In this document: piece after piece, positions 17,126 through 53,341 of the stretch
How positions within the stretch are numbered: the stretch's first letter is position 1
Layout: every line of letters starts with the position of its first letter
NCBI RefSeq assembly: GCF_023336905.1
Contig: NZ_JAMBLS010000002.1
Coordinates: 124,001-188,000, forward strand
DNA: 64,000 nucleotides
Origin: Bacteroides sp. ET71
Lineage (GTDB): Bacteria; Bacteroidota; Bacteroidia; Bacteroidales; Bacteroidaceae
Direction of reading: 5' to 3'
Notes under the pieces: model-generated
Told to the model about the DNA's origin: nothing
The model's database searches: none
Seen by the model: only the letters and a program-made list of their open reading frames with translations
Program-made: the position numbers and the translations under genes

Positions 17126-17190
17126 GCTTCTCACGGACCAGAGCCTTCCTTCTTACGGACAAGAAGCGCGCCTCTTCCGAACAAGAGATT
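17126..17190. repeat. Three-unit 22-bp dyad array upstream of pepT
   Basis: Three copies step by exactly 22 bp, judged on the centre ACGGAC, ACGGAC, CCGAAC at 17133, 17155 and 17177. Each is a short inverted repeat: CTC/GAG, CTTCTT/AAGAAG and CTCTT/AAGAG. The units resemble the array at 42376-42460 (CTTCTCCGnnnAAGAGCC-like). Nothing else was seen in 17069-17253. Confidence 0.7.
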
Positions 17191-17253
17191 CTCTCCTCCT
17201 GCACGAAGCACACATGCACATGCCTACGCCCTGTTTATCGCTGTAAAATTAAG

Positions 17254-17297
17254 AAAAGAGGCGTGAACTGCCAAGCAATTCACGCCTCTTTTTTTCA
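17254..17297 (-). terminator. Strong bidirectional terminator after the PurF-like gene
   Basis: The 14-bp arms AAAAGAGGCGTGAA (17254-17267) and their complement (17279-17292) are T-flanked on both strands. It ends the PurF-like transcript. Confidence 0.9.
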
Positions 17298-17319
17298 TTT
17301 CCATACACCAGTATGGCAC

Positions 17320-18729
17320 TCAAAAGCAACCCGTTCCGTCGAAACAATGGGTACACAATTTACATTTAGGCAACCCGATAGATTCTACCAGCGTTTCCAG
17401 CGTATTGAATTTCAAAGAATTCAGTCCGAAACGCTGGCGGATGATATCCACCAACTTCTCATACTCCGGCGAACCGGTCCGGGCATACTTCTCCAGATTC
17501 TTATTCTCGTCACCTTCCAGCTCTTTGATAATGCGCCGCGTAATCAGCTCAAGATTACTGCGCGAAGCCGTAAAACCGATGAATGGACAAGCATAAATAA
17601 GCGGCGGACAAGCAATGCGGATATGCACCTCGCGGGCACCACACTCATAAAGCACCTTCACATTGTCCCGCAACTGTGTGCCGCGCACGATGGAGTCATC
17701 GCAAAACAACAACCGCTTGCCTTGCAACATGGAACGATTGGGAATCAATTTCATCTTGGCCACCAGGTTACGCAACTCTTGCCGGCTCGGCGTAAAACTA
17801 CGCGGCCAGGTAGGCGTGTACTTGGCAATGGCCCGATGATAAGGCACCCCCTTGCCTTCTGCATAACCCAGCGCCATGCCTACGCCCGAATCGGGAATAC
17901 CACAAGCACAATCCACTTCCGAAGTGTCCGTCTGCCCCATTTTCAATCCGGACAAGAAACGGACTTCCTCCACATTGCGGTCTTCATAACACGAAGTAGG
18001 GAAACCATAATATACCCACAGGAAAGAACAAACCTGCATCTGCTCATTAGGCTTGCGCAACTGTTCCACCCCGTCTGCACACAAACGAACAATTTCGCCC
18101 GGCCCCAGGTAAGAATGTATCTCATAGTCCAAGTTCGGGAAACTGCTTGACTCACTGCTGGCTGCGTACGCCCCCTCCTTTCGGCCTATCACGATAGGTG
18201 TACGTCCCCATTTGTCGCGGGCAGCAATAATGCCATCCTCCGTCAGCAACAACATAGAGCAAGAACCCTTGATGCGATTATAAACATTTTCAATGCCCTC
18301 TACAAAAGTCTTCCCTTGAATAATGAGCAAGGCTACCAGCTCCGTCTGGTTCGTTTTACCCGAACTAAGCTCTGCAAAATGCATATTGCGAGACAACAGC
18401 TCGGCCTCCAGTTCGTCCATATTCTGTATTTTTGCCACCGTAACAATAGCAAACCGGCCTAAATGAGAATTTATAATAATGGGCTGGGCATCTGTATCAC
18501 TAATGATGCCTATGCCCGAATTGCCGACAAACTTGTTCAACTCGTCTTCAAATTTAGTCCGGAAATACGTACTTTCCAAGTTATGGATGGAACGGGTGAA
18601 TTGTTTTTTTTCCGCATCATACGTAGCCATACCGCCACGTCTGGTTCCCAAATGCGAATTATAATCAGTGCCGTAAAACAAATCGGTCACACATTGCGCC
18701 TTGGATACTGTTCCGAAAAAGCCTCCCAT
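17320..18729 (-). CDS. Amidophosphoribosyltransferase (PurF) homologue lacking the N-terminal Cys nucleophile
   Basis: A 469-residue protein with PurF architecture: an N-terminal Ntn-glutaminase-like half and a C-terminal phosphoribosyltransferase half with a good PRPP motif, LLFCDDSIVRGTQ (341-353). Active PurF begins MCGI, and Cys2 is the glutaminase nucleophile. This one begins MGGFFGTVSK, with Gly at positions 2 and 3. It should not hydrolyse glutamine. It may use ammonia, partner with another glutaminase or have a new substrate. The C-terminus is Cys-rich (CKLCTHCFDGTGC), suggesting a metal site. It is transcribed alone from its own promoter. Homology is clear; function is not. Confidence 0.85.
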   Translation of the reverse strand: MGGFFGTVSKAQCVTDLFYGTDYNSHLGTRRGGMATYDAEKKQFTRSIHNLESTYFRTKFEDELNKFVGNSGIGIISDTDAQPIIINSHLGRFAIVTVAKIQNMDELEAELLSRNMHFAELSSGKTNQTELVALLIIQGKTFVEGIENVYNRIKGSCSMLLLTEDGIIAARDKWGRTPIVIGRKEGAYAASSESSSFPNLDYEIHSYLGPGEIVRLCADGVEQLRKPNEQMQVCSFLWVYYGFPTSCYEDRNVEEVRFLSGLKMGQTDTSEVDCACGIPDSGVGMALGYAEGKGVPYHRAIAKYTPTWPRSFTPSRQELRNLVAKMKLIPNRSMLQGKRLLFCDDSIVRGTQLRDNVKVLYECGAREVHIRIACPPLIYACPFIGFTASRSNLELITRRIIKELEGDENKNLEKYARTGSPEYEKLVDIIRQRFGLNSLKFNTLETLVESIGLPKCKLCTHCFDGTGCF

Positions 18730-18770
18730 AAGAAATGATGTATTGTATTTAAATTTAGCATTTATGCGTG

Positions 18771-18778
18771 CAAAGGTA
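18771..18778 (-). promoter_or_regulatory. -7 box of the PurF-like gene
   Basis: The minus strand reads TACCTTTG, about 42 bp upstream of the ATG. The spacer 18730-19046 otherwise holds a second plus-strand TACCTTTG (18916-18923) and small inverted repeats such as AAGCTT-N8-AAGCTT. I found no fluoride-riboswitch signature. Confidence 0.6.
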
Positions 18779-18987
18779 CGAAAAAGTCAGCACTGACGAC
18801 AAAGGAGACTTGCTTTTTTCAATGCACATACGAAAAGAAGCCGCTCCACCAGTCCCAAACAGACTTACAGAAACGGCTTCCCAAAACTAACACCTGCATG
18901 AAAACTACAACCTTTTACCTTTGTAGCTTTATATAAGCTTGCAAATATAAGCTTTTCCGTTCAAACAGCCAACTATAAAGCCATTTC

Positions 18988-19019
18988 TTTTTGACGCAAC
19001 AACAAAATACTTATCTTTG
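18988..19019 (+). promoter_or_regulatory. Promoter of crcB (-33 TTTTTG, -7 TATCTTTG)
   Basis: TTTTTG at 18988-18993 and TATCTTTG at 19012-19019 are spaced by 18 bp, matching the Bacteroides consensus. The -7 box overlaps the upstream extension of the open frame, fixing the crcB start at 19047. Confidence 0.75.
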
Positions 19020-19046
19020 CACGTTTTTAACTCCATTTTCCATTAT

Positions 19047-19427
19047 ATGACGAAGACACTGCTCTTAATTTTCCTGGGCGGAGGCACAGGCAGCCTTTTA
19101 CGTTATGCCGTACAACTGATGACCGACCAGCACCAACGTTTCTCCTCTCCCACACTCTTCCCGTGGTCCACCTTCTGCGTCAATCTCTTAGGCAGCTTCC
19201 TCATCGGCTTGTTCTACGCATGGGCTTCCCGCTTCAACTTATCAATAGAAACTCGTCTATTGCTTACCACAGGTTTATGCGGCGGTTTTACAACCTTCTC
19301 CACCTTCAGCTACGAAAGTATGAATCTGCTACGCCAAGGTTACTATATGATATTTATAGCCTATATCAGCGCCAGTATCTCATTAGGAATAGTAGCTACG
19401 CTGGCTGGAGGATGGATAGGCAAATAA
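19047..19427 (+). CDS. crcB: Fluoride exporter CrcB/Fluc
   Basis: A 126-residue protein with four membrane helices. GGGTGSLLRY near the N-terminus, the pore motif VNLLGSFLIG and the GLCGGFTTFSTFSYE signature with the phenylalanine box are all present. It forms a dual-topology dimer that passes F- out of the cell. A single gene usually means a homodimer. The start at 19047 follows from the promoter just upstream. Confidence 0.95.
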   Translation: MTKTLLLIFLGGGTGSLLRYAVQLMTDQHQRFSSPTLFPWSTFCVNLLGSFLIGLFYAWASRFNLSIETRLLLTTGLCGGFTTFSTFSYESMNLLRQGYYMIFIAYISASISLGIVATLAGGWIGK

Positions 19428-19467
19428 AAAAGGAAGGACATGCTCTGACAGCACATTCTTCCTTTTT
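19427..19467. terminator. Bidirectional terminator between crcB and tRNA-Thr
   Basis: The exact 10-bp arms AAAAAGGAAG (19427-19436) and CTTCCTTTTT (19458-19467) provide a T tract on either strand. It starts at the last base of crcB and ends 5 bp from the 3' end of the tRNA gene. Confidence 0.85.
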
Positions 19468-19471
19468 CCTG

Positions 19472-19545
19472 AGCCTCTTGTCGGATTCGAACCAACGACC
19501 CCGAGATTACAAATCACGTGCTCTGGCCAACTGAGCTAAAGAGGC
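19472..19545 (-). tRNA. tRNA-Thr (anticodon TGT)
   Basis: A 74-nt cloverleaf on the minus strand: acceptor GCCTCTT/AAGAGGC, D arm GCTC/GAGC, anticodon loop TTTGTAA (TGT, threonine) and T arm GTTGG-TTCGAAT-CCGAC. CCA is not encoded. One base pair in the anticodon stem looks mismatched (T-T). It lies 4 nt after the SRP RNA, presumably on one transcript. Confidence 0.93.
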
Positions 19546-19549
19546 GGGT

Positions 19550-19645
19550 GGGTAAGCTTACTACATCGCGCCGCTACAACCTGCTACCTTTGCTGCGGTC
19601 AAGCCCTGGAGGATTCACAGGGAGCTGGCCGTGTAGGACTTACCC
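19550..19645 (-). ncRNA. ffs: Small signal recognition particle RNA (4.5S type)
   Basis: On the minus strand the ends GGGTAAG and CTTACCC pair over a 96-nt RNA. The core CAGGGCTTGACCGCAGCAAAGGTAG (given here in parts: CAGGGC, TTGACC, GCAGCAAAGGTAG) lines up base for base with bacterial domain IV, CAGGGC-CGGAAG-GCAGCAAGGGTAG, keeping the CAGG and AGCA Ffh-contact sides. The 3' half (TTGTAGCGG, GATGTAG) also resembles 4.5S RNA. The usual GGAA tetraloop position reads TGAC, a URRC-type loop. A -7 box precedes it, supporting this strand. Confidence 0.8.
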
Positions 19646-19658
19646 GTTTTTGCGGGTG

Positions 19659-19666
19659 CAAAGGTA
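19659..19666 (-). promoter_or_regulatory. -7 box of the SRP RNA/tRNA-Thr unit
   Basis: The minus strand reads TACCTTTG, ending 13 bp before the SRP RNA body. This places the start of transcription near 19652. Confidence 0.7.
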
Positions 19667-19751
19667 GGCATTTTTTTCATACGCACAATACATCCGCCAA
19701 ACTTTTTTCAACTTTAACAAGTCGGCACACCTGTACATACAATATTATTTA

Positions 19752-19759
19752 TACCTTTG
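19752..19759 (+). promoter_or_regulatory. -7 box of the DUF4199 gene
   Basis: TACCTTTG lies 23 bp before the ATG at 19783, with a very short leader. Confidence 0.65.
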
Positions 19760-19782
19760 CAGCACATTTCAAAGGAACAAAA

Positions 19783-20337
19783 ATGGCAGAAAACAGAGGT
19801 TATATACAACGCTACGCCATGCTCTTCGGAGCTTATTTAGGCGTATATTGGATTATCGGAGCAGTATTCTTCCCTTTAGGCCTTGCCAACCCGCTGCTCT
19901 TTTTACTATTCATCGCCTTTGTGATAGGCGGCCCTTTTGTGGGTTATTATTATGTAAAGACATATCGTAAACAGGCTTGCGGAGGTTACATTTCATTCTC
20001 TCATGCGTGGCTTTTTTCCATGTTGATGTACGTTTTTGCAGCCTTGCTTGCAGCAGCCGCTCATTACATTTATTTCCGTTTCATCGACGGAGGATACATC
20101 ATCAATACGTACACGAGCCTGATTAACGACTTTTTCAGCCAAAACACAACGGCTGCCGACATGACGCCCTACAAAGAACAAATGGAGCAAGCCTTGGAAC
20201 AATTATCCAAGTTTACCCCCATAGATATCACGATGCAAATATTTTCGAACAATATCTTCTGGGGAATATTACTGGCCATTCCAACAGCCCTCTTCGCCAT
20301 GAAGAAAAACAATGGAGCCAATCCGATTCAATTTTAA
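19783..20337 (+). CDS. DUF4199 family membrane protein
   Basis: A 184-residue protein with four hydrophobic segments (about 10-30, 35-60, 72-98, 157-175) and a polar loop rich in Gln/Glu between the third and fourth. It matches DUF4199, a Bacteroidota inner-membrane family of unknown role often found directly before a GT2 glycosyltransferase, as here. The 18-bp gap to that gene suggests a transcriptional unit, possibly in membrane or cell-envelope lipid glycosylation (inference from context). Confidence 0.8.
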   Translation: MAENRGYIQRYAMLFGAYLGVYWIIGAVFFPLGLANPLLFLLFIAFVIGGPFVGYYYVKTYRKQACGGYISFSHAWLFSMLMYVFAALLAAAAHYIYFRFIDGGYIINTYTSLINDFFSQNTTAADMTPYKEQMEQALEQLSKFTPIDITMQIFSNNIFWGILLAIPTALFAMKKNNGANPIQF

Positions 20338-20355
20338 TCAAAATTTATAGACCGA

Positions 20356-21312
20356 ATGGACATTTCAGTAATCGTACCTTTATATAATGAAGAAGAATCC
20401 CTGAAGGAGTTATTCACCTGGATTGAACGGGTGATGAACCAACACGGCTTCACCTACGAAGTAATCTTTGTGAGTGACGGAAGCACAGACCACTCCTGGG
20501 AAATCATCGAAGAGCTGCACCAACAACACCCCGAGGTCGTGAGGGGTATAAAGTTCCGCAGAAACTACGGCAAATCGCCGGCTTTGTATTGCGGCTTCAA
20601 ACAAGCAGAAGGGAACGTAGTCATTACCATGGATGCCGACCTGCAAGACAGCCCGGACGAAATTCCCGAACTCTACCGCATGATTACGGAAGAAGGCTAT
20701 GACCTGGTATCCGGCTGGAAGAAGAAACGCTACGACCCCTTGTCCAAAACGCTGCCCACCAAGCTGTTCAACGCCACGGCACGCCGAGTCTCAGGCATAA
20801 AAAATCTGCATGACTTTAACTGCGGATTAAAAGCCTACCGCAAAGAAGTCATCAAGAACATCGAAGTCTATGGGGAGATGCACCGCTACATCCCCTACCT
20901 GGCCAAGAGTGCAGGATTCAATAAAATTGGCGAGAAAGTAGTACATCACCAAGCCCGCAAATTCGGTAAAACCAAATTTGGCGGCTGGAACCGCTTCTTC
21001 AACGGATATTTGGATTTAATTTCTCTCTGGTTCCTTTCCACTTTTGGCATCAAGCCCATGCATTTCTTCGGATTCTTAGGCTCGTTGATGTTCATCCTCG
21101 GTTTTATTTCCGTCATCATCGTAGGCGCCAGCAAACTATATTACATGCACAATGACATGCCCTACCGCTTAGTGACTGAGTCACCTTATTTTTATCTGGC
21201 ACTGACAGCCATGATCATTGGCACCCAACTGTTTTTAGCAGGCTTTTTGGGTGAACTTATCTCACGCAATGCTACCGGACGCAATAACTACCAAATAGAA
21301 AAAAACATTTAA
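20356..21312 (+). CDS. Family 2 glycosyltransferase, polyprenyl-phosphate sugar synthase type
   Basis: A 318-residue protein. The GT-A domain starts ISVIVPLYNEEESL, with the donor-binding VSDGSTD and the DxD-like MDADLQDSPDEIP, followed by VSGWKKKRYD. Two membrane helices (about 233-258 and 278-302) end the protein, the architecture of GtrB/DPM1-type enzymes that move a sugar from a nucleotide to a polyprenyl phosphate at the cytoplasmic membrane face. The sugar cannot be inferred. It is followed within 7 bp by the DUF6452 gene. Confidence 0.9.
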   Translation: MDISVIVPLYNEEESLKELFTWIERVMNQHGFTYEVIFVSDGSTDHSWEIIEELHQQHPEVVRGIKFRRNYGKSPALYCGFKQAEGNVVITMDADLQDSPDEIPELYRMITEEGYDLVSGWKKKRYDPLSKTLPTKLFNATARRVSGIKNLHDFNCGLKAYRKEVIKNIEVYGEMHRYIPYLAKSAGFNKIGEKVVHHQARKFGKTKFGGWNRFFNGYLDLISLWFLSTFGIKPMHFFGFLGSLMFILGFISVIIVGASKLYYMHNDMPYRLVTESPYFYLALTAMIIGTQLFLAGFLGELISRNATGRNNYQIEKNI

Positions 21313-21319
21313 CGCTCCT

Positions 21320-21802
21320 ATGAAACGACTCATCAGATTAATATTAGCAGGCGTACTGCTTTGCCCGGCAATAGGCTTCATGGCATCTTGTTCGGAAGAA
21401 GCAGACTGTTCCATGAATGAACGTGCCATGACCAACTGCGGAATCTACACCATCGATGCTGATGGATTCATAGCCAATGACACGCTGGATTCGCTTACCG
21501 TAACCGCATTTGGCACAGACAGTATCATTGTCAACAACCAGAAAGACGTTAACGACCTCACCCTACCGTTGCGCTACACGGTCGATTCAACAATTTTGGT
21601 GTTCCGATACAGTCGCTATACAACCGATACGCTTGTCATTCATCACACCAATACGCCCTATTTCTTGTCGATGGACTGCGGATACCAGATGCAGCAACGT
21701 ATCACCTCCGTCACACATACAACCCACCGATTAGACTCTATCTATATCACCAATAACGAAGCCGGCATCTATGGTCAGGAAAATATCCAGTTATTTTATT
21801 AG
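21320..21802 (+). CDS. DUF6452 family lipoprotein
   Basis: A 160-residue protein with a lipoprotein signal ending FMASC, followed by a Thr/Asp-rich beta domain and conserved Cys (ADCSMNERAMTNCGIY, MDCGY). It matches DUF6452, uncharacterised Bacteroidota proteins encoded next to DUF6048, as here. The last 32 bp overlap the start of the next gene, a sign of translational coupling. It probably sits in the envelope with its partner. Confidence 0.75.
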   Translation: MKRLIRLILAGVLLCPAIGFMASCSEEADCSMNERAMTNCGIYTIDADGFIANDTLDSLTVTAFGTDSIIVNNQKDVNDLTLPLRYTVDSTILVFRYSRYTTDTLVIHHTNTPYFLSMDCGYQMQQRITSVTHTTHRLDSIYITNNEAGIYGQENIQLFY

Positions 21803-22544
21803 TCTGCTATGTAGTCTGTTGCTGCTTCTGGCTCTGCCGGCACAAGCACAATATGCTGGCTCATCCTCGACCAAAGACACCCGTCCCGTGGCCAAGAAGA
21901 AGGAGAAGAAACCGGCAGAAATAGAATATCCGCTCTACAACGGAGTGTCCGTAGGATTAGACTTATGGGGCATCGGCAGCAAGCTGTTCGGTGGAGACTT
22001 TCTGAGCAGTGAAGTGATAGCCAGCGTAGATTTGAAACACCGTTTTTTTCCTACTGTGGAAGTCGGCTACGGACAAACAGACGCTTGGAACGATAACGGC
22101 ATACACTACAAGAGCGGTGCTCCCTACTTCCGCATCGGCATGGACTACAATGCACTGTATAAGAAGAAACACGGCCAGATGCTACTTGTCGGATTACGCT
22201 ACGGTTTCAGCAGTTTCAGCTATGACATCGAAAGCATGAGCGTAAGCGACCCCATTTATGGTGGAAGCATCGGCAATCCCAATCTGATTGACGACATATG
22301 GGGAGGCAGCATCTCCTACCGGCACAGCGGAATGACAGGTTCCATGCAATGGCTGGAATTGGGCGTAGGTATACGCGCACACATCTGGAAACCACTATAC
22401 ATGGGCTGGGGACTGCGCTTCCGTTTCAGGTTATCGGCCTCTACCGGACAATATGGGGACCCGTGGTACGTACCCGGATTCGGGACATACAAGTCTAACA
22501 CATTGGGCGTGCAGTACAGTATTATATATAAATTACCTTTCTAA
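21771..22544 (+). CDS. DUF6048 family outer-membrane protein
   Basis: A 257-residue protein with a signal peptide (to ALPAQAQ) and a Lys-rich linker. About eight amphipathic strands of an OmpA/OmpW-like barrel follow, ending in IIYKLPF with a terminal Phe. It matches DUF6048, found coupled with the upstream lipoprotein gene. Role unknown. Confidence 0.75.
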   Translation: MVRKISSYFISLLCSLLLLLALPAQAQYAGSSSTKDTRPVAKKKEKKPAEIEYPLYNGVSVGLDLWGIGSKLFGGDFLSSEVIASVDLKHRFFPTVEVGYGQTDAWNDNGIHYKSGAPYFRIGMDYNALYKKKHGQMLLVGLRYGFSSFSYDIESMSVSDPIYGGSIGNPNLIDDIWGGSISYRHSGMTGSMQWLELGVGIRAHIWKPLYMGWGLRFRFRLSASTGQYGDPWYVPGFGTYKSNTLGVQYSIIYKLPF

Positions 22545-22561
22545 ATCTTCTCTACGTAATT

Positions 22562-23143
22562 ATGACAGAATTAGAAATCTGCCTCTTGGCTGTGGGACTT
22601 GCCATGGATTGCTTCGCCGTGTCCATTGCCAGCGGCATCATACTGAAACGCCCACGTTGGCGCGCCATGCTTACCATGGCCTTCTTTTTCGGTTTTTTCC
22701 AGGCACTCATGCCACTGATAGGATGGGCAGCAGCCAGCCTTTTCAGCCATCTGATAGAGGCCGTAGACCATTGGATTGCTTTTGGTATTCTGGCTTTCTT
22801 GGGCATACGCATGATACGCGAATCGCTCAAAGACGAAGAATGTCGCCACACCTTTGACCCTACCCGTCTGAAAGTAGTACTGGCATTTGCCATAGCTACC
22901 AGCATTGACGCATTGGCCGTAGGGGTATCGTTTGCTTTTGTAGGCATGAATGGGGCGGAAGACATCCTGCCAGCCGTCGGCATAATCGGCATAGTTTCGT
23001 TCATTCTGTCCATGGCCGGGTTACTCTTTGGCATACGGTGCGGATGCGGACTAGCCAAGAAGTTGCGCGCCGAACTGTTGGGAGGGGTCATTCTGGTCAT
23101 TATCGGATGCAAAATACTGATAGAACACTTATTCTTTAACTAA
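22562..23143 (+). CDS. mntP: Manganese efflux pump MntP
   Basis: A 193-residue protein with six membrane helices in two repeats. Each repeat has the transmembrane Asp motif: VGLAMDCFAVSIASG near the N-terminus and ATSIDALAVGVSFAF in the second half, both needed for Mn2+ export in this family. It protects against manganese excess. No yybP-ykoY riboswitch was recognised; the gap to the upstream gene is only 17 bp, so it is probably expressed with it. Confidence 0.93.
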   Translation: MTELEICLLAVGLAMDCFAVSIASGIILKRPRWRAMLTMAFFFGFFQALMPLIGWAAASLFSHLIEAVDHWIAFGILAFLGIRMIRESLKDEECRHTFDPTRLKVVLAFAIATSIDALAVGVSFAFVGMNGAEDILPAVGIIGIVSFILSMAGLLFGIRCGCGLAKKLRAELLGGVILVIIGCKILIEHLFFN

Positions 23144-23159
23144 CCTTTTCTCAACGAAA

Positions 23160-24191
23160 ATGAACAGAAAGACAAAATACAACCTCGCATGGCTGGTGCT
23201 CCTCATTGCAGGGACCGTGTGGATACTGATACGCCACCAGGCTCCTGTTTCCTACCAGAAAGATGAAGGCCTTATATTCGGCACTATCTACAACATTACC
23301 TACCAGCATGACAAGAGTTTAAAAGAAGATATCGAGGCTGAGCTACACCGCTTTGACGCTTCCTTGTCACCTTTTAACGAGGCATCTGTCATCAGCCGCA
23401 TCAACCGTAACGAAGACGTCCGGCCAGATACCTTCTTCACCAACGTCTTCCACCGGAGCGAGCAGATCTCTCAAGAAACCGAAGGCGCCTTCGACATCAC
23501 CGTAGCTCCACTTGTCAATGCCTGGGGATTTGGCTTCAAGGATGGTGTCTTCCCCGACTCAAGCATGATAGACAGCCTGCTCCGGTTTACCGGCTACCGG
23601 AAAGTACGCCTCACTCCCGATGGCCGTATCAAGAAAGACGACCCACGCCTGATGTTGACTTGCAGTGCCGTAGCCAAAGGCTATGCCGTGGACGTAGTGG
23701 CCAACCTGCTGAAACGCCACGGAATACAGAATTTCCTGGTAGACATCGGCGGAGAAGTCGTAGTGCATGGCACCAACCCTCAGTCCCAACCGTGGCGCAT
23801 CGGCATCAATAAGCCCGTAGATGATTCACTGTCTGTCAGCGGAGAGCTGCAAACGGTCTTGCACATCACCAACGCTGCCATGGCCACTTCGGGCAACTAC
23901 CGGAACTTCTACTATCGCGACGGCAAGAAATACGCCCACACCATCGACCCGCGCACAGGGATGCCCGTGCAACACGAAATTCTGTCGGCCACCGTCATTG
24001 CCCGCGACTGCATGAGTGCCGACGCCTATGCCACCGCTTTCATGGTCATGGGCTTACAGGAAGCTATCGCCTTTACCGAAGCACATCCGGAGCTAAACGC
24101 CTATTTCATCTATAACGATGCGGAAGGCCGGATGCAAATCTATCAAACCCAAGGCATGAAGCAATTCCTCTCCCCTCCCCCGGAGAAATAA
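23160..24191 (+). CDS. apbE: FAD:protein FMN transferase
   Basis: A 343-residue ApbE-family enzyme with an N-terminal signal anchor (residues about 8-24). It attaches FMN covalently to Thr of periplasmic flavoproteins such as NqrB, NqrC and RnfG. Family motifs are VSPFNEASVISRINRN-like (here LSPFNEASVISRIN), CSAVAKGYAVDVV, LVDIGGEVVVHG and HTIDPRTGMPV. Located 16 bp after mntP. Confidence 0.94.
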   Translation: MNRKTKYNLAWLVLLIAGTVWILIRHQAPVSYQKDEGLIFGTIYNITYQHDKSLKEDIEAELHRFDASLSPFNEASVISRINRNEDVRPDTFFTNVFHRSEQISQETEGAFDITVAPLVNAWGFGFKDGVFPDSSMIDSLLRFTGYRKVRLTPDGRIKKDDPRLMLTCSAVAKGYAVDVVANLLKRHGIQNFLVDIGGEVVVHGTNPQSQPWRIGINKPVDDSLSVSGELQTVLHITNAAMATSGNYRNFYYRDGKKYAHTIDPRTGMPVQHEILSATVIARDCMSADAYATAFMVMGLQEAIAFTEAHPELNAYFIYNDAEGRMQIYQTQGMKQFLSPPPEK

Positions 24192-24247
24192 CGTCTTCCC
24201 CTTCTGTTCTCAACCCCTAATTCTTAATTTTCAATTCTCAATTTTCA

Positions 24248-32245: not shown

Positions 32246-32281
32246 CGCATTGATAAATATTCTTCCGGAAGCACCGCCCGC

Positions 32282-32465
32282 TTGGCAAACCGCCAAAGCC
32301 AGACTTGGCAAGCTGCCAAAGCCGGACTTGGCAAACTGCTGTATCCTAAGGAGGCAAACCGCCGCATACCAAGGAGGCGAACTGCCGCATACTAAGGAGG
32401 CGAACTGCCGCATAGCATAGGTGGGAGTCCACCACCCGGATAGGTGGGACACTGCCACCCGTTAC
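32282..32465. repeat. Eight-unit 23-bp dyad array between major fimbrillin and anchor genes
   Basis: Eight contiguous 23-bp units start at 32282, 32305, 32328, 32351, 32374, 32397, 32420 and 32443. Each opens with an inverted repeat whose arms drift in pairs: TTGGC-N5-GCCAA (unit 1), TTGGCA-N3-TGCCAA (unit 2), GAGGC/GCCGC types (units 4-6), GGTGG-N4-CCACC (unit 7), GGTG-type (unit 8). The remaining 7-8 bp of each unit are spacer. It occupies nearly all of the gap between the major fimbrillin stop and the anchor start. Confidence 0.9.
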
Positions 32466-42375: not shown

Positions 42376-42460
42376 CTTTCTTTCGCAGAGCCTTGCCTTC
42401 TCCGAGGAAGAGCCGCCCTTTTTCCGAAGAAGAGCCATGCTTTCTCCGGACAACGAGCCG
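42376..42460. repeat. Four-unit 22-bp dyad array
   Basis: Four degenerate copies end in GAGCC at 42389, 42411, 42433 and 42456, that is, steps of 22, 22 and 23 bp. The units have CTTC/TTTC left arms and GAAGAG-like right arms around CCG (for example CTTCTCCGAGGAAG and TTTTCCGAAGAAGAG). They resemble the units at 17126-17190. The array is in the 3' region of the preceding gene. Confidence 0.7.
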
Positions 42461-45789: not shown

Positions 45790-47067
45790 ATGAACAAATA
45801 TATGAAATGGCTGTTGGTTACCGCATGGATGGTGGCCTCCAGCGCTTGTGAAGACTTCAGGGATGCCAACCAGGCAGACACGGTGGCGTCCATTCGGGCA
45901 AACGTCACCCTGACCTTGGCCGTGGAAAACGTGGCATCGACGCAAGACTTCGTTGTGAAGTTCGACAACTACGATGAGAACCTGCACATCAGCGAAGAGT
46001 GTAACGGCACGGAAAGCGTAACGATAGAAGGCCTTATCCCCGGCATCTATACCGTCACCGTGTCAGGCACCGTATTCGACACAGAGGGCGACGAGTATTA
46101 CGTCAACGGCAATGTCGTGAACCAAGCCATCCTCCAAGACGACACGTCCTTGGACATCACCGTCCAAGGGTTGAAGGTCAGCCCGTTGGTGCTGAAGGAA
46201 ATCTATTATGCCGGCAGCCGAACGCCCACGAACGGAGTTTACTTCCGCGACCAATTCTATGAGATATACAACAACTCTGCCCAGACGCAATACTTGGACG
46301 GGGTTTACTTCGCCAACCTGGTCCCGGGCAAGTCTTCCACCACCCTGCCCGTCTGGCCCGAAAGCGACGGCAACAATTATGCCTATGCCGAACGTGTCTG
46401 GCGTATTCCCGGCAACGGGACAGACTATCCGCTGGAGCCGGGCGAATCGTGCGTCATCTCGCAGTTCGCCGCCAACCACCAGTTGGAGATATACAACCCG
46501 AACTCGCCCATCGACGGCAGCATCTCGGAATTTGAGTTCAACATGAACAACGCCACTTATCCGGACCAGCCGGCAGTGGACATGATACACATCTTCTACA
46601 ACGGTCTGGCAAGTATGGGCAGCATCCCGCAGTACCTGACATCGGTGTTCGGCCCCGCCATCGTCATCTTCCGCGTCCCCGAAGGCGATAACTACGACCC
46701 CGTGAACGACCCGAACTTGAAGACGACCGACCTGAGCAAGCCGAACAGTTCGACCTATTATGCCAAGATACCCATCAGCTACGTGCTGGATGCCGTGGAG
46801 TGCATAGATAACGCCACGGCCGTCAACGCCAAGCGCGTACCCGCCGCCTTGGATGCCGGAATGACCTACGTCGGTTCGACCTACTGCGGGCTGAGCGTGG
46901 CGCGGAAGCCCCTGACGGACGAGAACGGCGAATATATGTACAACGCCGTGGGAGCGTTGATGTTCCAAGACACGAACAACAGCACGGACGACTTCGAGGG
47001 TGGAGTGGTGCCGATGATCCGCCGGTACGACACAGGAATGCCTGCCTGGAACCATACATTGCAATAA
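45790..47067 (+). CDS. DUF4876 family lipoprotein
   Basis: A 425-residue lipoprotein (signal ends SSAC, Cys20). Residues about 40-120 form an Ig-like beta domain (VTIEGLIPGIYTVTVSGTVFD). Residues about 135-250 have lamin-tail character (LVLKEIYYAGSRTPTNG, FYEIYNNSAQTQYLDGVYFA, LEPGESCVISQFA). It matches DUF4876, usually next to a TonB receptor, as here. It is probably surface- or periplasm-tethered and may capture a ligand for the receptor, in the SusD-like position (inferred from gene order). It lies 9 bp before the next gene. Confidence 0.82.
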   Translation: MNKYMKWLLVTAWMVASSACEDFRDANQADTVASIRANVTLTLAVENVASTQDFVVKFDNYDENLHISEECNGTESVTIEGLIPGIYTVTVSGTVFDTEGDEYYVNGNVVNQAILQDDTSLDITVQGLKVSPLVLKEIYYAGSRTPTNGVYFRDQFYEIYNNSAQTQYLDGVYFANLVPGKSSTTLPVWPESDGNNYAYAERVWRIPGNGTDYPLEPGESCVISQFAANHQLEIYNPNSPIDGSISEFEFNMNNATYPDQPAVDMIHIFYNGLASMGSIPQYLTSVFGPAIVIFRVPEGDNYDPVNDPNLKTTDLSKPNSSTYYAKIPISYVLDAVECIDNATAVNAKRVPAALDAGMTYVGSTYCGLSVARKPLTDENGEYMYNAVGALMFQDTNNSTDDFEGGVVPMIRRYDTGMPAWNHTLQ

Positions 47068-47076
47068 CCGAAGGAG

Positions 47077-48666
47077 ATGACCCAAACAATAAAGAATAAC
47101 ATGATACGAATGATGAACAAGATAACGAAGAAGCTGCTGGCCTGCGCCATCGTCTGCGCCGGATGCAGCACGCAGGCCATAGCCCAAGGCTGGACGCCGG
47201 CCGGCATGGAATGGTTGAAGGAACAACGGCTGTGGTTCCAGTCGCAAAATGCGGCCGGCACGGTGTTCGACAACACAGACAATTACTCGGACGTGAAACT
47301 GAACTACCAACGGACGGGCGGCAACTTTGCCCGCCCGCAAGAGGGGGCGGACGAGCAGAGCATCGGCGTGAGCAGCGAGGGTTTCCTGAACTTGGACGAC
47401 GCCTACGTGTGGGGCGCTTTCAGCTTCAGGCAAGAAAACAAGTGGGATGCGGGCTACAACGCTTCCATCACCGACCCCTTCCGCGGCATGCCTTACTACG
47501 TGGCGGACAAGTATCTGAGCGACTGGCGCAACCAGTATTACGACCTGAGCTTCCGGGCTGCCACGCCGTTGTATTGGAACCGCGTGGCCTTTGGAATAGA
47601 AGGGACATACCAGGCGTCATTGGCCGCCAAGCAGCGTGACCCGCGCGTGGACACCCGCTTCTACAATTTGGAGCTGAAACCCGGCGTGACCTACGCCATC
47701 AACCCACGCCACCGAGTGGGCGCAAACTTCATATATGCCTCCATCAAGGAAGACTCGCGCATGAGCAACAGCGACTCTTACACTGACCAGGACTATTACG
47801 AGTTGTATGGCCTCGGCGTGGCGGTGGCCGGCATCGGCTCGGGACGCACCACGAACTACCACGGCGACAAGGTGGGGGCAGCGGTGCAATACGGCTTCTC
47901 CTGCCCTACGGTCGACCTGCTGCTGGAGGGCAGCTACACGATGAAGGTGGAGAATGTCGAGGTGTCCTACACATCGCCCAAGAAAGATGCGGCCGTCAAC
48001 GACCAGACCGTGCAGGCAGCCGTGAGCCTCATCGAACGCGGGGAACGTACGTCGCACTCCTTCCGCCTGGGCTACACCTACCGGCACATCGACGGCATAC
48101 AGTACATCAGCCAGCGCGACAACAGCGAAGCGATGACGGGATGGATAGCATTGTATCACAACGTGCGTTCGACGTATGAGACGAATGCAGTCGACGTGCG
48201 TTACGCCATCATCCGCCCCAGAGGCGAGGAATATGACTGGCGGGTTGACCTGGCAGGACGTTATGAGAAGCAAAACGACACGTACCTGATGCCCCGCTCG
48301 ACCAAGAACCACGAGAACCTGTATGTCGAAGCCTGTGGCAAGAAGAACTTCGTGCTGGGGCAAAAGCTGACCCGCCGCCTGCTGGTGGAGGCCCATGCCG
48401 CGTATAACAAAAACCTGAACGGAGGCTACCACTACGGAGGCTCGAACGCCGACTACGTGACGGTGACGGAGATGGAGACGCTCGACGCGCTCTACCTCAC
48501 CTCGGACTACTACCGCCTGGGACTGAGTGCCACCTATTCGCAGCAGCTCAAGGAACACAGCCACACGCATCTCTTCGCCAAGGCTGCCTTCGACTACACC
48601 CATGCGCAGGAAGACCGGTTCAGCCACCGCAGCGTGCTGTCCGTCAGCCTGGGATGCAACTTCTAA
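47077..48666 (+). CDS. DUF6850 family outer-membrane beta-barrel protein
   Basis: A 529-residue protein. The start could also be the ATG at 47101 or 47110, which begins a normal signal peptide (to AIAQG). The mature part is a long series of amphipathic strands (NYSDVKLNYQRTGGNFARP, WDAGYNASITDPFRGMPYYVADKY) ending LSVSLGCNF with the terminal Phe of outer-membrane barrels. DUF6850 barrels are found downstream of TonB receptors plus DUF4876. Possibly a second pore or receptor partner; no function known. Confidence 0.8.
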   Translation: MTQTIKNNMIRMMNKITKKLLACAIVCAGCSTQAIAQGWTPAGMEWLKEQRLWFQSQNAAGTVFDNTDNYSDVKLNYQRTGGNFARPQEGADEQSIGVSSEGFLNLDDAYVWGAFSFRQENKWDAGYNASITDPFRGMPYYVADKYLSDWRNQYYDLSFRAATPLYWNRVAFGIEGTYQASLAAKQRDPRVDTRFYNLELKPGVTYAINPRHRVGANFIYASIKEDSRMSNSDSYTDQDYYELYGLGVAVAGIGSGRTTNYHGDKVGAAVQYGFSCPTVDLLLEGSYTMKVENVEVSYTSPKKDAAVNDQTVQAAVSLIERGERTSHSFRLGYTYRHIDGIQYISQRDNSEAMTGWIALYHNVRSTYETNAVDVRYAIIRPRGEEYDWRVDLAGRYEKQNDTYLMPRSTKNHENLYVEACGKKNFVLGQKLTRRLLVEAHAAYNKNLNGGYHYGGSNADYVTVTEMETLDALYLTSDYYRLGLSATYSQQLKEHSHTHLFAKAAFDYTHAQEDRFSHRSVLSVSLGCNF

Positions 48667-48680
48667 AGAACCAAGTTTTT

Positions 48681-48715
48681 GGGTATCCGAGATTCCGAAA
48701 CAATCTCGGATACCC
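48681..48715. repeat. 14-bp-stem hairpin between the barrel and first peptidase genes
   Basis: The perfect arms GGGTATCCGAGATT (48681-48694) and their complement (48702-48715) enclose a 7-nt loop. No T run follows on the plus strand, so it is not a clear terminator. It could be an mRNA processing or stability element. Confidence 0.75.
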
Positions 48716-48728
48716 ATCTGCAACAATC

Positions 48729-48820
48729 GTAGATAGTAATCTACAACACTTGTAGATACTAATCTACAACATTCGTAGATACTAAGCTACAACATTTGTA
48801 GATACTAAGCTACAACAGCC
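48729..48820. repeat. Four-unit 23-bp dyad array before the first peptidase gene
   Basis: Units start at 48729, 48752, 48775 and 48798, each beginning with GTAGAT-N4-ATCTAC (units 1-2) or GTAG-N8-CTAC (units 3-4) and a CAACA-rich spacer. A partial unit tail (CTGCAACAATC) precedes them at 48718-48728. It fills the gap between the DUF6850 stop and the peptidase start at 48846. Confidence 0.92.
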
Positions 48821-48845
48821 ATAACTTATTATACAAACAATCTTC

Positions 48846-51029
48846 ATGAAAGTAGTAAAAACCATCACAACGGTCGGCCTGCTATGCTTCGCCTTAGGCG
48901 TCACGGCACAAACCATCATCCGGCCGGAAAACCAGGGCAAAAGCCCTACCTTCGCCATCTTCACCGACGAGCAGACCTGGCAACACTGCCGCGAAGAGCT
49001 GGAAGCCTATCGCGACGTGCTGGGCGAAGAACAACTGCCGACCTACATCATCTACAACAACTGGCAACGCCCGGAGGAAGTGAAAAACCTCATCTGCAAG
49101 CTGCACCGCCGCAACAGGCTGGAAGGAGCCGTCTTCGTGGGCGACATCCCCATCCCTATGATACGCAAGGCGCAACACCTGACCTCGGCGTTCAAGATGG
49201 ACGAAACCGTCGACCGCCGCGAATCATCCGTGCCCAGCGACCGTTTCTACGACGACCTGCACCTCGAGTTCGAACCCTTGGGGCAAGACTCGCTCAACCC
49301 GCAGTTCTTCTACTACAACCTCGACGTGCACTCGCCCCAACACATCCGTTGCGACATCTACACAGGGCGCATCAAACCCGTGGCCGACGGCACAGACCCC
49401 TACGAGCAAATCAGCCGCTACCTGCGTAAAGCCGTACACGAGCACCGCACGCCCAATGCCCTCGACCAGTTCTTCTCCTACACCGGCCACGGCTCCTACT
49501 CCAACTCACTGACCGCCTGGATCATGGAGCCCTTCACCCTACGCGAGCAGATGCCGGGCATATTCGATCGCAACGGCCGCGCCCGCTTCATGCGCTTCAA
49601 CATGTACGACTATCCCAAAGACGAAGTAAGCCACATGCTGCGGCGCGAAGACCTCGACCTGGCCATCTTCCACGAACACGGCACGCCCGACCGCCAATAC
49701 CTGTCCGGCAATCCATCCACCCACGACACAGAGGGACACATTCGCGCCATGCAGGCCGACCGCCGATACTACGCCCGCACCTGGACGAAAGACACCGAAA
49801 GCCTCCGGAAAGCCTACCGCCAACTGGACACCGACTATGGCCTGGACTCCACCTGGTTCGCCCGCTACAACGACCCAACCCAAACAGCCCAAGACTCATT
49901 GGACGACCTCCGCACAGGCCTCGTACTGACAGACATCAGCCGCATAGCCCCCAACGTGCGCATGGTCATCTTCGACGCCTGCTACAACGGAGATTTCCGT
50001 GAAGACGACTACATCGCCGGACGATACATCTTCTCACAAGGCCGCAGCGTCGTGGCATTTGCCAACAGCGTCAACGTCTTGCAAGACAAGCAAGCCAACG
50101 AACTGCTGGGACTGCTCGGCATGGGAGCCCGCGTGGGCCAGTGGGCACAACTGACCAACATACTGGAATCACACGTCATCGGCGACCCCACCCTGCGCTT
50201 CACCTCCTTCACCCCTGACGTGGACGGCACCGACCTGTGCAACCGCCCCTACAAGGAACAAGAAATGCTCGACCTCCTGGCATCTCCCTACGCCGACGTA
50301 CAAAACCTGGCCCTACATCGCCTGTACAGACATGGATACCCAGGCATCTCACAGCTCTTGCGCCAGAAGTTCCAGACCTCTCCCCAGGCCACGGTCCGTT
50401 ACACCTGTCTAGCACTGCTGGAAAAACTGGGTGATGAAAACTTCTGCGACATACTCATCCCCGCCCTCACAGACGCCAACGAATTTATCCGCCGCACCGC
50501 CGTGCGCAAAATGGCAGCCGTAGGCCGCAACGACTACGTCCCCCATCTCATAAAAGCCTACATCGAAGACCATCACTCCGTACGCCTGGCCTTCAACATA
50601 CAGTTGGCTCTTTATGTATTCGACGAACAACCCGTACGACAAGCCATCGACAGTGTCTTGCAGCACTCCTACGTCATAGACAAAGAAAAATTCCGCCAAG
50701 AACTGCTGTCAGCCTATAAACAAAGGACCTCGTCGGACAATGCCATCATAGGCAAACAAGAAAAAGAACGCTGGCGGATACTCTACATCAGTTCCCTGCG
50801 CAACTATCCCATCCACGGGTCTGTCGGAGACTACTTGCGCATCCTGCAAGACCCGAAGGAATCAGAAGAGCTGAAAATAGCCATGCTGCAAGCACTGGCA
50901 TGGTACAGGCTGTCGCGGAAAAGACAAAACATAGCCCAAGCATGCCGTCGGCTACAACGAGACAAACACGCTTCTCCTGCCGTACGTACGGAAGCAGAAC
51001 GAACTTATTACAGACTGATAAACGAATAA
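48846..51029 (+). CDS. Gingipain-fold (C25) peptidase with HEAT repeats, paralogue 1
   Basis: A 727-residue protein with a signal peptide (to GVTAQ). Two strand-HG motifs are present: SYTGHGS (His215) and LAIFHEHGTP (His276, His278). VIFDACYNGDF (Cys379) follows, like gingipain ACVNGDF and the clan CD strand-DAC signature. VGDIPIPMIRKAQHL and SSVPSDRFYDD are shared by all three paralogues. The C-terminal third is alpha-helical, HEAT-like (LALHRLYRHGYPGISQLL, RRTAVRKMAAVGRNDYVPHLIKAYI). No T9SS C-terminal domain, so periplasmic residence is likely. Arg/Lys specificity cannot be told. Confidence 0.82.
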   Translation: MKVVKTITTVGLLCFALGVTAQTIIRPENQGKSPTFAIFTDEQTWQHCREELEAYRDVLGEEQLPTYIIYNNWQRPEEVKNLICKLHRRNRLEGAVFVGDIPIPMIRKAQHLTSAFKMDETVDRRESSVPSDRFYDDLHLEFEPLGQDSLNPQFFYYNLDVHSPQHIRCDIYTGRIKPVADGTDPYEQISRYLRKAVHEHRTPNALDQFFSYTGHGSYSNSLTAWIMEPFTLREQMPGIFDRNGRARFMRFNMYDYPKDEVSHMLRREDLDLAIFHEHGTPDRQYLSGNPSTHDTEGHIRAMQADRRYYARTWTKDTESLRKAYRQLDTDYGLDSTWFARYNDPTQTAQDSLDDLRTGLVLTDISRIAPNVRMVIFDACYNGDFREDDYIAGRYIFSQGRSVVAFANSVNVLQDKQANELLGLLGMGARVGQWAQLTNILESHVIGDPTLRFTSFTPDVDGTDLCNRPYKEQEMLDLLASPYADVQNLALHRLYRHGYPGISQLLRQKFQTSPQATVRYTCLALLEKLGDENFCDILIPALTDANEFIRRTAVRKMAAVGRNDYVPHLIKAYIEDHHSVRLAFNIQLALYVFDEQPVRQAIDSVLQHSYVIDKEKFRQELLSAYKQRTSSDNAIIGKQEKERWRILYISSLRNYPIHGSVGDYLRILQDPKESEELKIAMLQALAWYRLSRKRQNIAQACRRLQRDKHASPAVRTEAERTYYRLINE

Positions 51030-51031
51030 AC

Positions 51032-53242
51032 ATGATGAAAATAGCTTTCCTTGCCCTGTGTCTGCTGCTGTCCGTAGGAAGCCAGGCACAGACAGTCATA
51101 GAAACACCTACGCAGACACAGCCAACCGCTTTTGCCATCGTCATAGACAACGCCACATACCGTGCAACGCGCAATGCCGTCATGCAGTACAGAGATGCCG
51201 TGCAACAAGATGGTTTGGCTGCCTACATCGTCCGAGGCGACTGGAAGAACCCGGATGAAGTAAAAACAGACATTGCCAAAGTCTATCGGCAGGCCCCTGC
51301 CTTGGAAGGCATTGTGCTGGTGGGAGACATCCCCGTGGCCATGATTCGCAACGCACAACACATGACCACCGCTTTCAAAATGAACGAAACGACGTTCCCC
51401 TTTCCGCAATCGTCCGTACCCAGCGACCGGTTCTACGATGACCTGCACCTGAAGTTCAAGTTCATCCGGCAGGACAGTGTAGCTCCGCACCTGTTTTATT
51501 ACGAACTGGCAGAAGACAGTCCGCAGACATTGAATCCCACGTTCTACTCAGCGCGAATCAAGTATCCTGAAGCCTGGGGCGGAGACAAATACCAGGCCAT
51601 TGCAGATTTCTTGGAGAAAGCCGCCCGCCTCAAGCAGCAACAGAAGACCAACCGCCTGGATGAAGTAGTGTCCTTCAACGGAGGTTCCTACAACTCCGAC
51701 TGCCTCGTTGCCTGGATGGACGAAGAAAAAGCTTACCGCGAAAACTTCCCCTTAGCCTTCCGCAACAGCACGTCGTTCAAGCACTGGAACTTCCGCATGG
51801 ACAACGCCATGAAGTACAGCCTTTTCGACGAACTGCAACGCCCGGAGGCAGACCTCTTTATGTTCCACGAACACGGACTGCCTACTCAGCAGCTCATCAA
51901 CAACGAACCCGTAGGAGACTCGTTCGGCTCGCGTCATGCCTTGTTCAAAAACGCCCTCTACCACCAAGTGCGCGAAGCCGTGGAAGAAGGTGAAAACGAA
52001 GACTCGCTGATTCTGGCCTTCACCCATAAGTACCACCTGACTGCCCCATTCTGGAAAGAGCTGCACGACGATGCCTTCTGGCAAACTGACTCGACAAGCT
52101 ATGCCGACATGTACATCAACCCAGCCGACTTGCGAGGGAAAGAAACCCGGCCGACCTTCGTCATGTTCGACGCCTGCTACAATGGTTCTTTCCACGAATC
52201 GGATTACCTGGCAGCCTACTATCTGTTCAACAACGGCACGACCGCCGTGACCCAGGGCAATACACGCAACGTGCTGCAAGACCGATGGACCATCGAAATG
52301 ATAGGACTGCTGTCGCACGGCGTACGCGTAGGGCAATACAACCGCCTGATAGCCACGCTGGAAGGGCACCTGCTGGGTGATCCTACGGTACGTTTTTCTC
52401 CGTTGGAAAAAGACTGTACGCTGAGCACAGACATCACGCTGCGCCAGGATGACATTGCTTATTGGCAGACCTTGCTTGAGGCTCCGTATGCCGATGTGCA
52501 GAGCCTGGCTTTGCGCATGATAGCCGATGCCGACCCCGACCGTCAGTTTTCCAAGCAGTTGCTGCACATATTTCGCCACACGCCTTTCAACACCGTACGC
52601 ATGGAGGCGCTGAAACTCCTAAGCCGATACAACAACGCTGACTTCACAGAAGCGGTGGCAGAAGGTCTGGAAGATGCCTACGAACTGGTGGCCCGGCAGA
52701 GTGCCAACTATGCCGGAGAGATTGGCGATACCGGCCGGCTGCTGAAACCCTACATACGTGCATGCATCGAAGATACCGAACGTCAACGGGTGAACTACCT
52801 GCTGAGCACGGGGCTGCCCCTCTTCCCACAAAGTGCCGTACAGGAAGCCATAGAAAACTACTATGCCTCCACCTACCGGCTGGATGCACCAGAAGAAAAG
52901 GCCGCCGTCCTGAAAGGTGTCGCCGCCCAGTTTGCCCGCGTAAAGCGCAACAACCAACGCATTTCCGACCCGTCCTTGTCTCCGAACAAGCGTATCTCGG
53001 CCATCCGCCTGCTGCGCAACAATCCGTATCACCCCTACGTAGAGCAATACCTGCAGGTGCTGCAAGATGAAGCCACACCCACCGAAGTACGCGTCGCCCT
53101 GGCCGAAGCGTTGGGTTGGTTCATCCACTCCGTCCGCCGGACAGACATCGCAAAGACCTGCCGCACCCTGCTCCAAACGCAGCAGCCCGAAGCACTGCGA
53201 CAGGAACTGATACAGACGCTCGGACGACTGGAACAACCGTAA
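51032..53242 (+). CDS. Gingipain-fold (C25) peptidase with HEAT repeats, paralogue 2
   Basis: A 736-residue protein from the ATG at 51032 (51035 also possible); the open frame back to 50900 overlaps paralogue 1 and is unlike the family. A signal peptide (to SQAQ) is followed by the same fold: FMFHEHGLP (His279, His281) and VMFDACYNGSF (Cys382). The first strand-HG motif is altered: FNGGSY replaces YTGHGS, losing that His. HEAT-like helices end the protein. It starts 2 bp after the stop of paralogue 1, so they are cotranscribed. Confidence 0.82.
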   Translation: MMKIAFLALCLLLSVGSQAQTVIETPTQTQPTAFAIVIDNATYRATRNAVMQYRDAVQQDGLAAYIVRGDWKNPDEVKTDIAKVYRQAPALEGIVLVGDIPVAMIRNAQHMTTAFKMNETTFPFPQSSVPSDRFYDDLHLKFKFIRQDSVAPHLFYYELAEDSPQTLNPTFYSARIKYPEAWGGDKYQAIADFLEKAARLKQQQKTNRLDEVVSFNGGSYNSDCLVAWMDEEKAYRENFPLAFRNSTSFKHWNFRMDNAMKYSLFDELQRPEADLFMFHEHGLPTQQLINNEPVGDSFGSRHALFKNALYHQVREAVEEGENEDSLILAFTHKYHLTAPFWKELHDDAFWQTDSTSYADMYINPADLRGKETRPTFVMFDACYNGSFHESDYLAAYYLFNNGTTAVTQGNTRNVLQDRWTIEMIGLLSHGVRVGQYNRLIATLEGHLLGDPTVRFSPLEKDCTLSTDITLRQDDIAYWQTLLEAPYADVQSLALRMIADADPDRQFSKQLLHIFRHTPFNTVRMEALKLLSRYNNADFTEAVAEGLEDAYELVARQSANYAGEIGDTGRLLKPYIRACIEDTERQRVNYLLSTGLPLFPQSAVQEAIENYYASTYRLDAPEEKAAVLKGVAAQFARVKRNNQRISDPSLSPNKRISAIRLLRNNPYHPYVEQYLQVLQDEATPTEVRVALAEALGWFIHSVRRTDIAKTCRTLLQTQQPEALRQELIQTLGRLEQP

Positions 53243-53249
53243 CACTTTG

Positions 53250-53341
53250 TTCGGTTCAACCGAACCGAGCCTTTCGAGCCAATCGAACCGAGCCTTTCGA
53301 CTCAATCGAACCGAGCCTTTCGAACCAATCGAACAAGAAAG
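53250..53341. repeat. Four-unit 23-bp dyad array between peptidase paralogues 2 and 3
   Basis: Units start at 53250, 53273, 53296 and 53319. Each opens with a 15-bp dyad: TTCGG-TTCAA-CCGAA in unit 1, then TTCGA-N5-TCGAA in units 2-4, followed by CCGAGCCT spacer. The paired change G-C to A-T in the arms keeps the dyad intact. It fills the intergenic gap. Confidence 0.92.

Follow-up and report, generated by a model that had tools for sequence, protein, structure and literature searches.

Five intergenic spacers in a 64,000-nucleotide stretch of Bacteroides sp. ET71 (contig NZ_JAMBLS010000002.1, positions 124,001 to 188,000; hereafter the window) hold short tandem arrays with a repeat unit of 22 or 23 bp. 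The question raised by this locus is why arrays of mostly unrelated sequence should share one step. A preliminary description had reported a period of 22-23 bp and a short inverted repeat (dyad) in all five spacers, and the tandem period of 22 or 23 was recovered in each by sequence reading and repeat finding. The window lies in a 3.63-Mb genome of 189 contigs, 99.6% complete, from a Bacteroides-type genus with 158 genomes. A home-made gene caller was used, and spacer limits and gene starts are therefore approximate. When periods 10-60 were scanned for self-match across the window, only periods 11, 22, 23 and 46 passed the limit. Our tentative reading, to which we give somewhat less than an even chance, is that the arrays belong to a genome-wide class of dyad minisatellites carried between genes in this genus, acting at the level of DNA and kept where they do no harm.

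Period spectrum of intergenic DNA

Together with the window, 40 other stretches of this genome, 20 kb each, were searched (864 kb in all) for clusters, defined as a self-match of at least 70% over 40 bp and counted per period. The 388 spacers (134,881 bp) were compared with their dinucleotide-shuffled versions (one per spacer) and with 716 kb of coding DNA. Period 22 gave 39 clusters in spacers, none in shuffled spacers and one in coding DNA, and period 23 gave 16, none and none. The excess over shuffled spacers thus extended from the window to the genome sample, and excludes chance as the origin of the arrays; coding repeats are excluded as well, coding DNA being nearly free of clusters of these two periods. 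In the same order, the counts were 4/0/0 for period 24, 3/0/4 for period 21, 14/0/0 for period 44, 13/0/0 for period 46 and 6/0/0 for period 11. All remaining periods from 8 to 51 had at most three spacer clusters each (three for period 33). Period 21 was the commonest in coding DNA (four clusters); coiled-coil heptads could produce such a period, and it therefore says nothing about a mutational ruler. Under a looser limit, arrays of period 21-24 numbered 70, with 65 lying in intergenic DNA, from which the whole genome would hold about 270 intergenic arrays, provided that the sample is typical. With a loose mask (self-match of at least 60%, periods 20-25), arrays made up 22,655 of 278,897 bp, or 8%, of the spacer DNA of nine genomes. 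One 24-bp array (L054:1093-1416) had 13 copies in two blocks of different unit type, CCACATAGAGCTTTGTGG and CATAGAGCGTTGGTG.

Relatives were sampled at 80-200 kb each, and the same peak, with at least three period-22 spacer clusters, was found in eight of the 12 other genomes of the genus: G146 (14 clusters), G144 (12), G060 (8), G155 (8), G015 (4), G066 (4), G046 (3) and G033 (3). One cluster was found in G030 and none in the samples of G018 (one of period 23), G040 and G063, and 150 kb of Escherichia coli had no period-22 spacer cluster. As the peak is also present in the single-contig genomes G155 and G066, an assembly artefact is unlikely. The 46 named loci nearest by the M20 peptidase encoded beside the window arrays cover 807 kb and mostly bear the titles Bacteroides, Phocaeicola, Mediterranea or Bacteroidaceae; they gave 23 clusters of period 22 and 11 of period 44, and no other period had more than six. 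No such peak was seen in 34 loci farther away (501 kb, for the most part from other Bacteroidales), where period 22 had three clusters, period 8 eight and period 21 seven.

Dyads within the arrays

A significant dyad was found in 62 of 157 arrays from 12 genomes, about eight being expected by chance (loops from 0 allowed). With hairpin loops of at least 3, 29 of the 65 arrays of the own genome exceeded column-permuted controls at p<0.05. The arrays in these and in the within-array pairing tests were preselected for periods 21-24, so that the fixed step itself rests on the spacer spectrum; related copies were reused, and the p-values are rough. Against 60 column-permuted controls for each window array, four of the five dyads of the preliminary description were borne out, and the one at 42387 was not. 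The density of stems of at least 6 bp was 8.78 per kb within arrays, compared to 2.54 for the remaining spacer and 1.36 for shuffled spacer. The best loop in significant arrays ranged from 0 to 12 nt, and dyad size therefore varies. The period is general and the dyad is common but not universal. Of the constant architecture proposed earlier, the spacing holds over unrelated sequence throughout the genome; the dyad reaches significance in only the 62 arrays mentioned.

Dyads placed two supercoiled turns apart might hold a nucleoid or cruciform-binding protein that reads structure rather than sequence. The earlier equation of 22-23 bp with two DNA turns was not upheld for relaxed B-DNA, two turns of which take about 21 bp, a period that is rare in spacers. 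Under negative supercoiling, it has been argued, a turn takes close to 11 bp; periods 11, 22, 33 and 44 would agree with this and period 23 would not. The period favoured by relaxed B-DNA would be 21. Helical phasing is consistent with the spacer clusters of periods 11 and 33, with a dyad density about 3.5-fold that of other spacer and with a mismatch pattern in the stems that is not typical of RNA (see below). With 95 of the 157 arrays devoid of a significant dyad, no candidate protein, and stems of 5-8 bp that are short for cruciforms, it is the least probable of the explanations considered here.

Covariation of the dyad arms

Paired arm changes had been taken as a sign of selection on structure. 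Both reported examples are present in the sequence: TTCGG/CCGAA to TTCGA/TCGAA at 53250, and TTGGC/GCCAA to GGTGG/CCACC at 32282, the latter accompanied by a one-base register shift. In the 29 dyad arrays of the own genome 633 of 691 cells were paired, compared to 610.3 (standard deviation 4.8, highest 624) when one arm was permuted across the copies. Pair types additional to the first numbered 12, compared to 7.8 (standard deviation 1.8, highest 13). When stems were set from one copy and the neighbours were checked, two-sided changes stayed Watson-Crick in 39 of 71 cases, a count that covers both directions of comparison, where one third was expected. Most arm changes within arrays break pairs, the same comparison giving 371 one-sided changes. 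With each neighbour counted once, a compensated position was found in 17 of 167 comparisons (one position in 14, two in three).

Covariation was more pronounced in two dispersed sequence families, F1, to which the window array at 32281 belongs, and F2. The 37 unique units of F1 had 142 of 185 cells paired (shuffled 110.7, standard deviation 3.7, highest of 2000 shuffles 123), and the 34 unique units of F2 had 217 of 272 (shuffled 175.3, standard deviation 5.2, highest 193); slid registers gave only 40-54 cells. These tests overstate significance, as the units are related and were chosen by likeness to a dyad-bearing seed; three edge units of F1 and 13 of F2 were dropped by eye. Pair types numbered 11 in F1 (shuffle mean 8.5, maximum 12) and 17 in F2 (mean 13.6, maximum 18), above the means but not the maxima. 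The loop and inner pairs of F1 are conserved and its outer arms variable; in F2 the dyad centre is the least conserved part. Covariation in F1 and F2, and a paired change in the orthologue of the 48694 array described below, agree with the earlier claim of selection, which is weakened by the low share of compensated comparisons and by the lack of a wobble signature over all arrays. Selection and template-copying mutation both predict paired arm changes.

Turnover in orthologous spacers

Seven arrays were set against their orthologues in the sister species G046, where the flanks are 89-99% identical. Array length differed by at least 23 bp in five, by a few bases in one (17127) and not at all in one (42387). 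Copy number thus differs between close relatives, as it does in variable-number minisatellites. The G046 orthologue of the 48694 array (48709 spacer) has more copies, with arms CGGAT/ATCCG in place of TAGAT/ATCTA, and the orthologue at 53250 has about two copies. At the own locus L049:13280 the G046 unit is wholly different, and G080 has a third version, of F2 type (by eye); no array was seen by eye in 10 of the 12 resolved relatives (13 searched, G038 unresolved).

Twenty pairs of an own array and a relative's spacer could be read in six genomes. In G046 four had a similar unit, one had another unit and two fell below the threshold though the same sequence was present. G144 had another unit in four pairs and no array in one, and G146 another unit in one and none in two. 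No array was found in the pairs with G060 (three), G015 (one) and G033 (one). By alignment coordinates, an array seems to be lacking at L176:6620 in G144 and G146, and at L175:8439 in G146. In the spacer upstream of the M20 gene, orthologous to window 17126, a period-22/23 self-match of at least 0.64 was found in only three of the 46 nearest named loci, and an array is not general there.

Families and dispersal

Among 103 arrays compared, 15 clusters of at least two were found, with 48 members and a largest cluster of 12; some members are orthologous or neighbouring. Most arrays had no relative in this set. The earlier statement that the arrays are mostly unrelated in sequence holds, except that the window array at 17127 clusters with 11 other arrays of the own genome. 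F1 occupies four own loci (window 32281, C9, C15 and C16) and, by BLAST clustering, four loci in G046, three of which yielded units. F2 was found at ten loci in three genomes, orthologous loci being counted separately. The G144 and G046 stretches were chosen through matches to the own sequence, some to the 32281 array itself, and these family counts are biased upward. The array family of L175:15950-16052 matches six G144 contigs (C1, C17, C20, C66, C74 and C86), mostly at 82-90% identity, at some places twice or in both orientations, and also G033 L256:16664.

Alignments between arrays with 200-nt flanks numbered 107, of which 74 overlapped both arrays by at least 20 nt. In 62 of these the homology reached no more than 25 nt beyond either array. 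Pairs within one genome numbered 58, of which 49 had such sharp edges (28 in the same and 21 in the opposite orientation). These edges, together with the dispersed families, could mean that the arrays form the centre of elements that a transposase moves in trans, such as miniature inverted-repeat transposable elements (MITEs) or repetitive extragenic palindromic (REP) sequences. A conserved tail at eight of the ten F2 loci (by eye) points the same way. So does an exceptional family of period-21 dyad arrays at three G146 loci (L240:19908, L241:15369 and L244:7166), in which the flanks match as well and the ends, AAAAGTT...AACTTTT, resemble inverted repeats, both being visible in two of the three stretches. 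This family looks like a MITE of the BrickBuilt kind in the present genus, and BrickBuilt, a repeat of Porphyromonas gingivalis treated below, is a precedent. For the arrays in general, movement in trans is quite unlikely, with almost nothing in common outside the array in the 49 within-genome pairs and most arrays lacking a relative. The search covered a single transposase profile, that of the Y1 transposase (PF01797), and gave no match in the own genome (G000). The arrays were accordingly rejected as REP elements served by a REP-associated tyrosine transposase (RAYT).

Position and transcript context

The arrays could also be selected RNA elements, that is, transcribed 3' or intercistronic hairpins which stabilise, process or terminate (Rho-type) the transcript, the sequence being unconstrained provided that C-rich linkers and hairpins are kept. 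Their distribution over spacers between codirectional (++ 27, -- 19), divergent (-+ 11) and convergent (+- 5) genes matched the expectation from spacer bases (23.2, 19.4, 14.8 and 4.6, respectively). Within codirectional spacers, 26 of 46 arrays start at most 30 nt after the upstream stop, compared to 17.0 (standard deviation 2.3, highest of 2000 equal to 26) for random placement. This agrees with an RNA role, but nearness to stops may merely reflect avoidance of promoters and ribosome sites. On the sense strand of codirectional arrays C exceeded G in 59, G exceeded C in 36 and two were equal (sign test about 0.02), control windows giving 291 to 289. The skew was present in the own genome, G144, G046 and G155 and absent from G146 and G060. 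A role in the transcript is decided neither by the position of the arrays nor by their skew.

RNA folding of the sense strand was clear at only two of the five window arrays, 48694 (z -7.7) and 53250 (z -3.1), the values for 32281, 17127 and 42387 being -1.6, -1.3 and -0.7. The antisense strands also fold well (z -4.6 at 48694 and -2.9 at 53250). One-sided arm changes on the sense strand gave G-U in 21 cases and A-C in 40 (G-U fraction 0.34, 95% bootstrap interval 0.22-0.47), and in other contexts 15 and 15. This deficit of G-U over all arrays is the opposite of what is expected for selected RNA stems, and selection on RNA hairpins through wobble pairs is unsupported over all arrays. At the family level, where covariation would suit RNA stems, F1 leans the other way (G-T to A-C 10 to 3), and F2 is even (16 to 16). 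Families occur in both orientations and in divergent spacers, and a T-run follows only one of 147 array stems, compared to 97 of 1123 other spacer stems, by which intrinsic terminators are ruled out. A selected RNA element is, on balance, unlikely. Searches of the window against Rfam at the gathering score gave one signal recognition particle (SRP) RNA and two tRNA matches, none overlapping an array, and known Rfam RNAs are ruled out there as the identity of the arrays.

Origin and maintenance of the arrays

The findings fit DNA minisatellites that are amplified and re-matched by hairpin copying: the step is constant, the arrays are confined to spacers, copy number and unit turn over quickly between sister species, and array DNA disperses alone. 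A short stretch, often a hairpin-forming dyad, would be duplicated in tandem with a 22-23 bp step, and replication slippage would then lengthen or shorten the array. In quasipalindrome correction, template switching within a hairpin copies a change in one arm to the other. An arm mutation in an array may sometimes be copied into the partner arm in this way, yielding the paired changes, and array DNA alone may at times be copied into other spacers. Constraints on reading frame and regulation would clear genes, and the stretch ahead of start codons, of arrays; these would remain in spacers, often just after stops, where they would be neutral.

Several observations weigh against this interpretation. 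Six spacers were compared in G144, among them L049:13280, which holds no array there; four hold arrays with periods of 22, 23, 23 and 24 that match those of their own counterparts and share no 9-mer with them. The window spacers concerned are 42387 (period 22), 48694 (23) and 53250 (23). A period kept over different sequence could reflect selection on the architecture, although the match was noticed after the fact. In F2 one pair is retained through a transversion (G-C in 23 units, C-G in nine, one C-C and one C-A), which could likewise result from such selection. The C-over-G skew hints at a role at the transcript level. Simple slippage offers no reason for a 22-23 bp step while dyad size varies, and the step is unexplained. 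No ruler or enzyme was found in a search that covered only the Y1 transposase. The period-matched G144 arrays and the covariation within families keep selection on architecture in play. In its full form, in which a molecular ruler or selection preserves the step and the dyad in spacers throughout Bacteroides-type genomes and the sequence is freely replaced, this alternative is possible but rather doubtful.

Arrays that occupy 8% of spacer DNA by the loose mask shape the intergenic regions of a major group of gut bacteria. A fixed step over unrelated sequences raises the question of how the cell measures out 22-23 bp; the answer is either a mutational process equipped with a ruler or a function that reads structure rather than sequence. 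As copy number differs between sister species, the arrays could serve as strain markers.

Window loci and neighbouring features

The array at 17127 reached a top self-match of 70% and was not reported by Tandem Repeats Finder (TRF) at score 30. In the 32281 array the arms TTGGC/GCCAA, GGC/GCC and GGTGG/CCACC flank a 5-nt loop, and the 53250 array begins just past a stop codon. The hairpin that overlaps the start of the 48694 array has no T-run; the units of the G046 array resemble its right arm (by eye), as though the array had grown from the hairpin. An array related to that at 4590 is held by G144 at L216:4128.

Table 1. Positions of arrays and of an associated hairpin in the window.
Feature	Positions	Strand	Description
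Period-11/22 array	4590..4675	+	TAGCGAAGGTG, without dyad; same spacing class
Period-22 array	17127..17186	-	2.7 copies; dyad of CTTCTT/AAGAAG type, p 0.049; CCGNACAAGAG sequence family
Period-23 array, family F1	32281..32461	-	Three joined TRF sub-arrays; dyad p 0.049
Period-22 array	42387..42453	+	3 copies; dyad p 0.61, not above control
Perfect 14-bp hairpin	48681..48715	+	Directly after the stop of the DUF6850 gene; overlaps start of the 48694 array
Period-23 array	48694..48817	+	5.4 copies; dyad GTAGAT/ATCTAC, p 0.016
Period-23 array	53250..53334	+	3.7 copies; dyad TTCGA/TCGAA, first copy TTCGG/CCGAA, p 0.033

Short heptamer-type arrays (TGGTTAA, CATTGAC) at 58094-58181 are a repeat class distinct from the 22-bp arrays. 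Three consecutive HEAT-repeat paralogs, 35-36% identical to the first, are encoded at 48846-55588, with dyad arrays in two upstream spacers, and have relatives in five of 60 genomes of the genus, the own genome included. On the minus strand at 19472-19652 a tRNA adjoins the Bacteroidales small SRP RNA gene. The nearest named records of the M20 peptidase were from Caecibacteroides pullorum (86%) and an uncultured Bacteroides (88%).

Comparison with known repeat systems

REP sequences, bacterial interspersed mosaic elements (BIMEs) and REP doublets forming hairpins (REPINs) are short intergenic dyads, sometimes clustered, which have a conserved sequence and are associated with the RAYT Y1 transposase. 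The present arrays are likewise short intergenic dyads, but have no conserved sequence and no Y1 transposase match in the genome. Bacterial variable-number tandem repeats and minisatellites are tandem and intergenic and vary in copy number, as do the arrays described here. Ordinary minisatellites are not, to our knowledge, known to share one period across unrelated units, and the common period sets these arrays apart. Intrinsic terminators are short hairpins soon after stop codons that are followed by a T-run; the arrays resemble them in their short hairpins near stops and differ in having no T-run.

Among the titles and abstract openings covered, none describes 22-bp arrays between genes of Bacteroides, subscription papers and preprints lying outside that search. 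The preliminary description knew of no described element with this design, which has one described relative in BrickBuilt. BrickBuilt is a 23-nt intergenic minisatellite within a MITE of P. gingivalis, with one sequence family at 19 loci, copy number that varies between strains, predicted stem loops and a mention of dyad symmetry, as well as a leader, a tail and terminal inverted repeats (PMC4596501). A further study annotates BrickBuilt, and its authors left short repeats of 3 to 31 bp unannotated (PMC5771137). The present arrays share with BrickBuilt, a repeat of another Bacteroidales genus, an intergenic tandem unit close to 23 nt long, the variation in copy number and the dyads. They differ in comprising many unrelated units on one period, with no unit sequence shared genome-wide, and most have no leader, tail or inverted-repeat ends, the exceptions being the period-21 family of G146 and, for the tail only, F2. 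Of the systems described so far, BrickBuilt is the closest known to the arrays.

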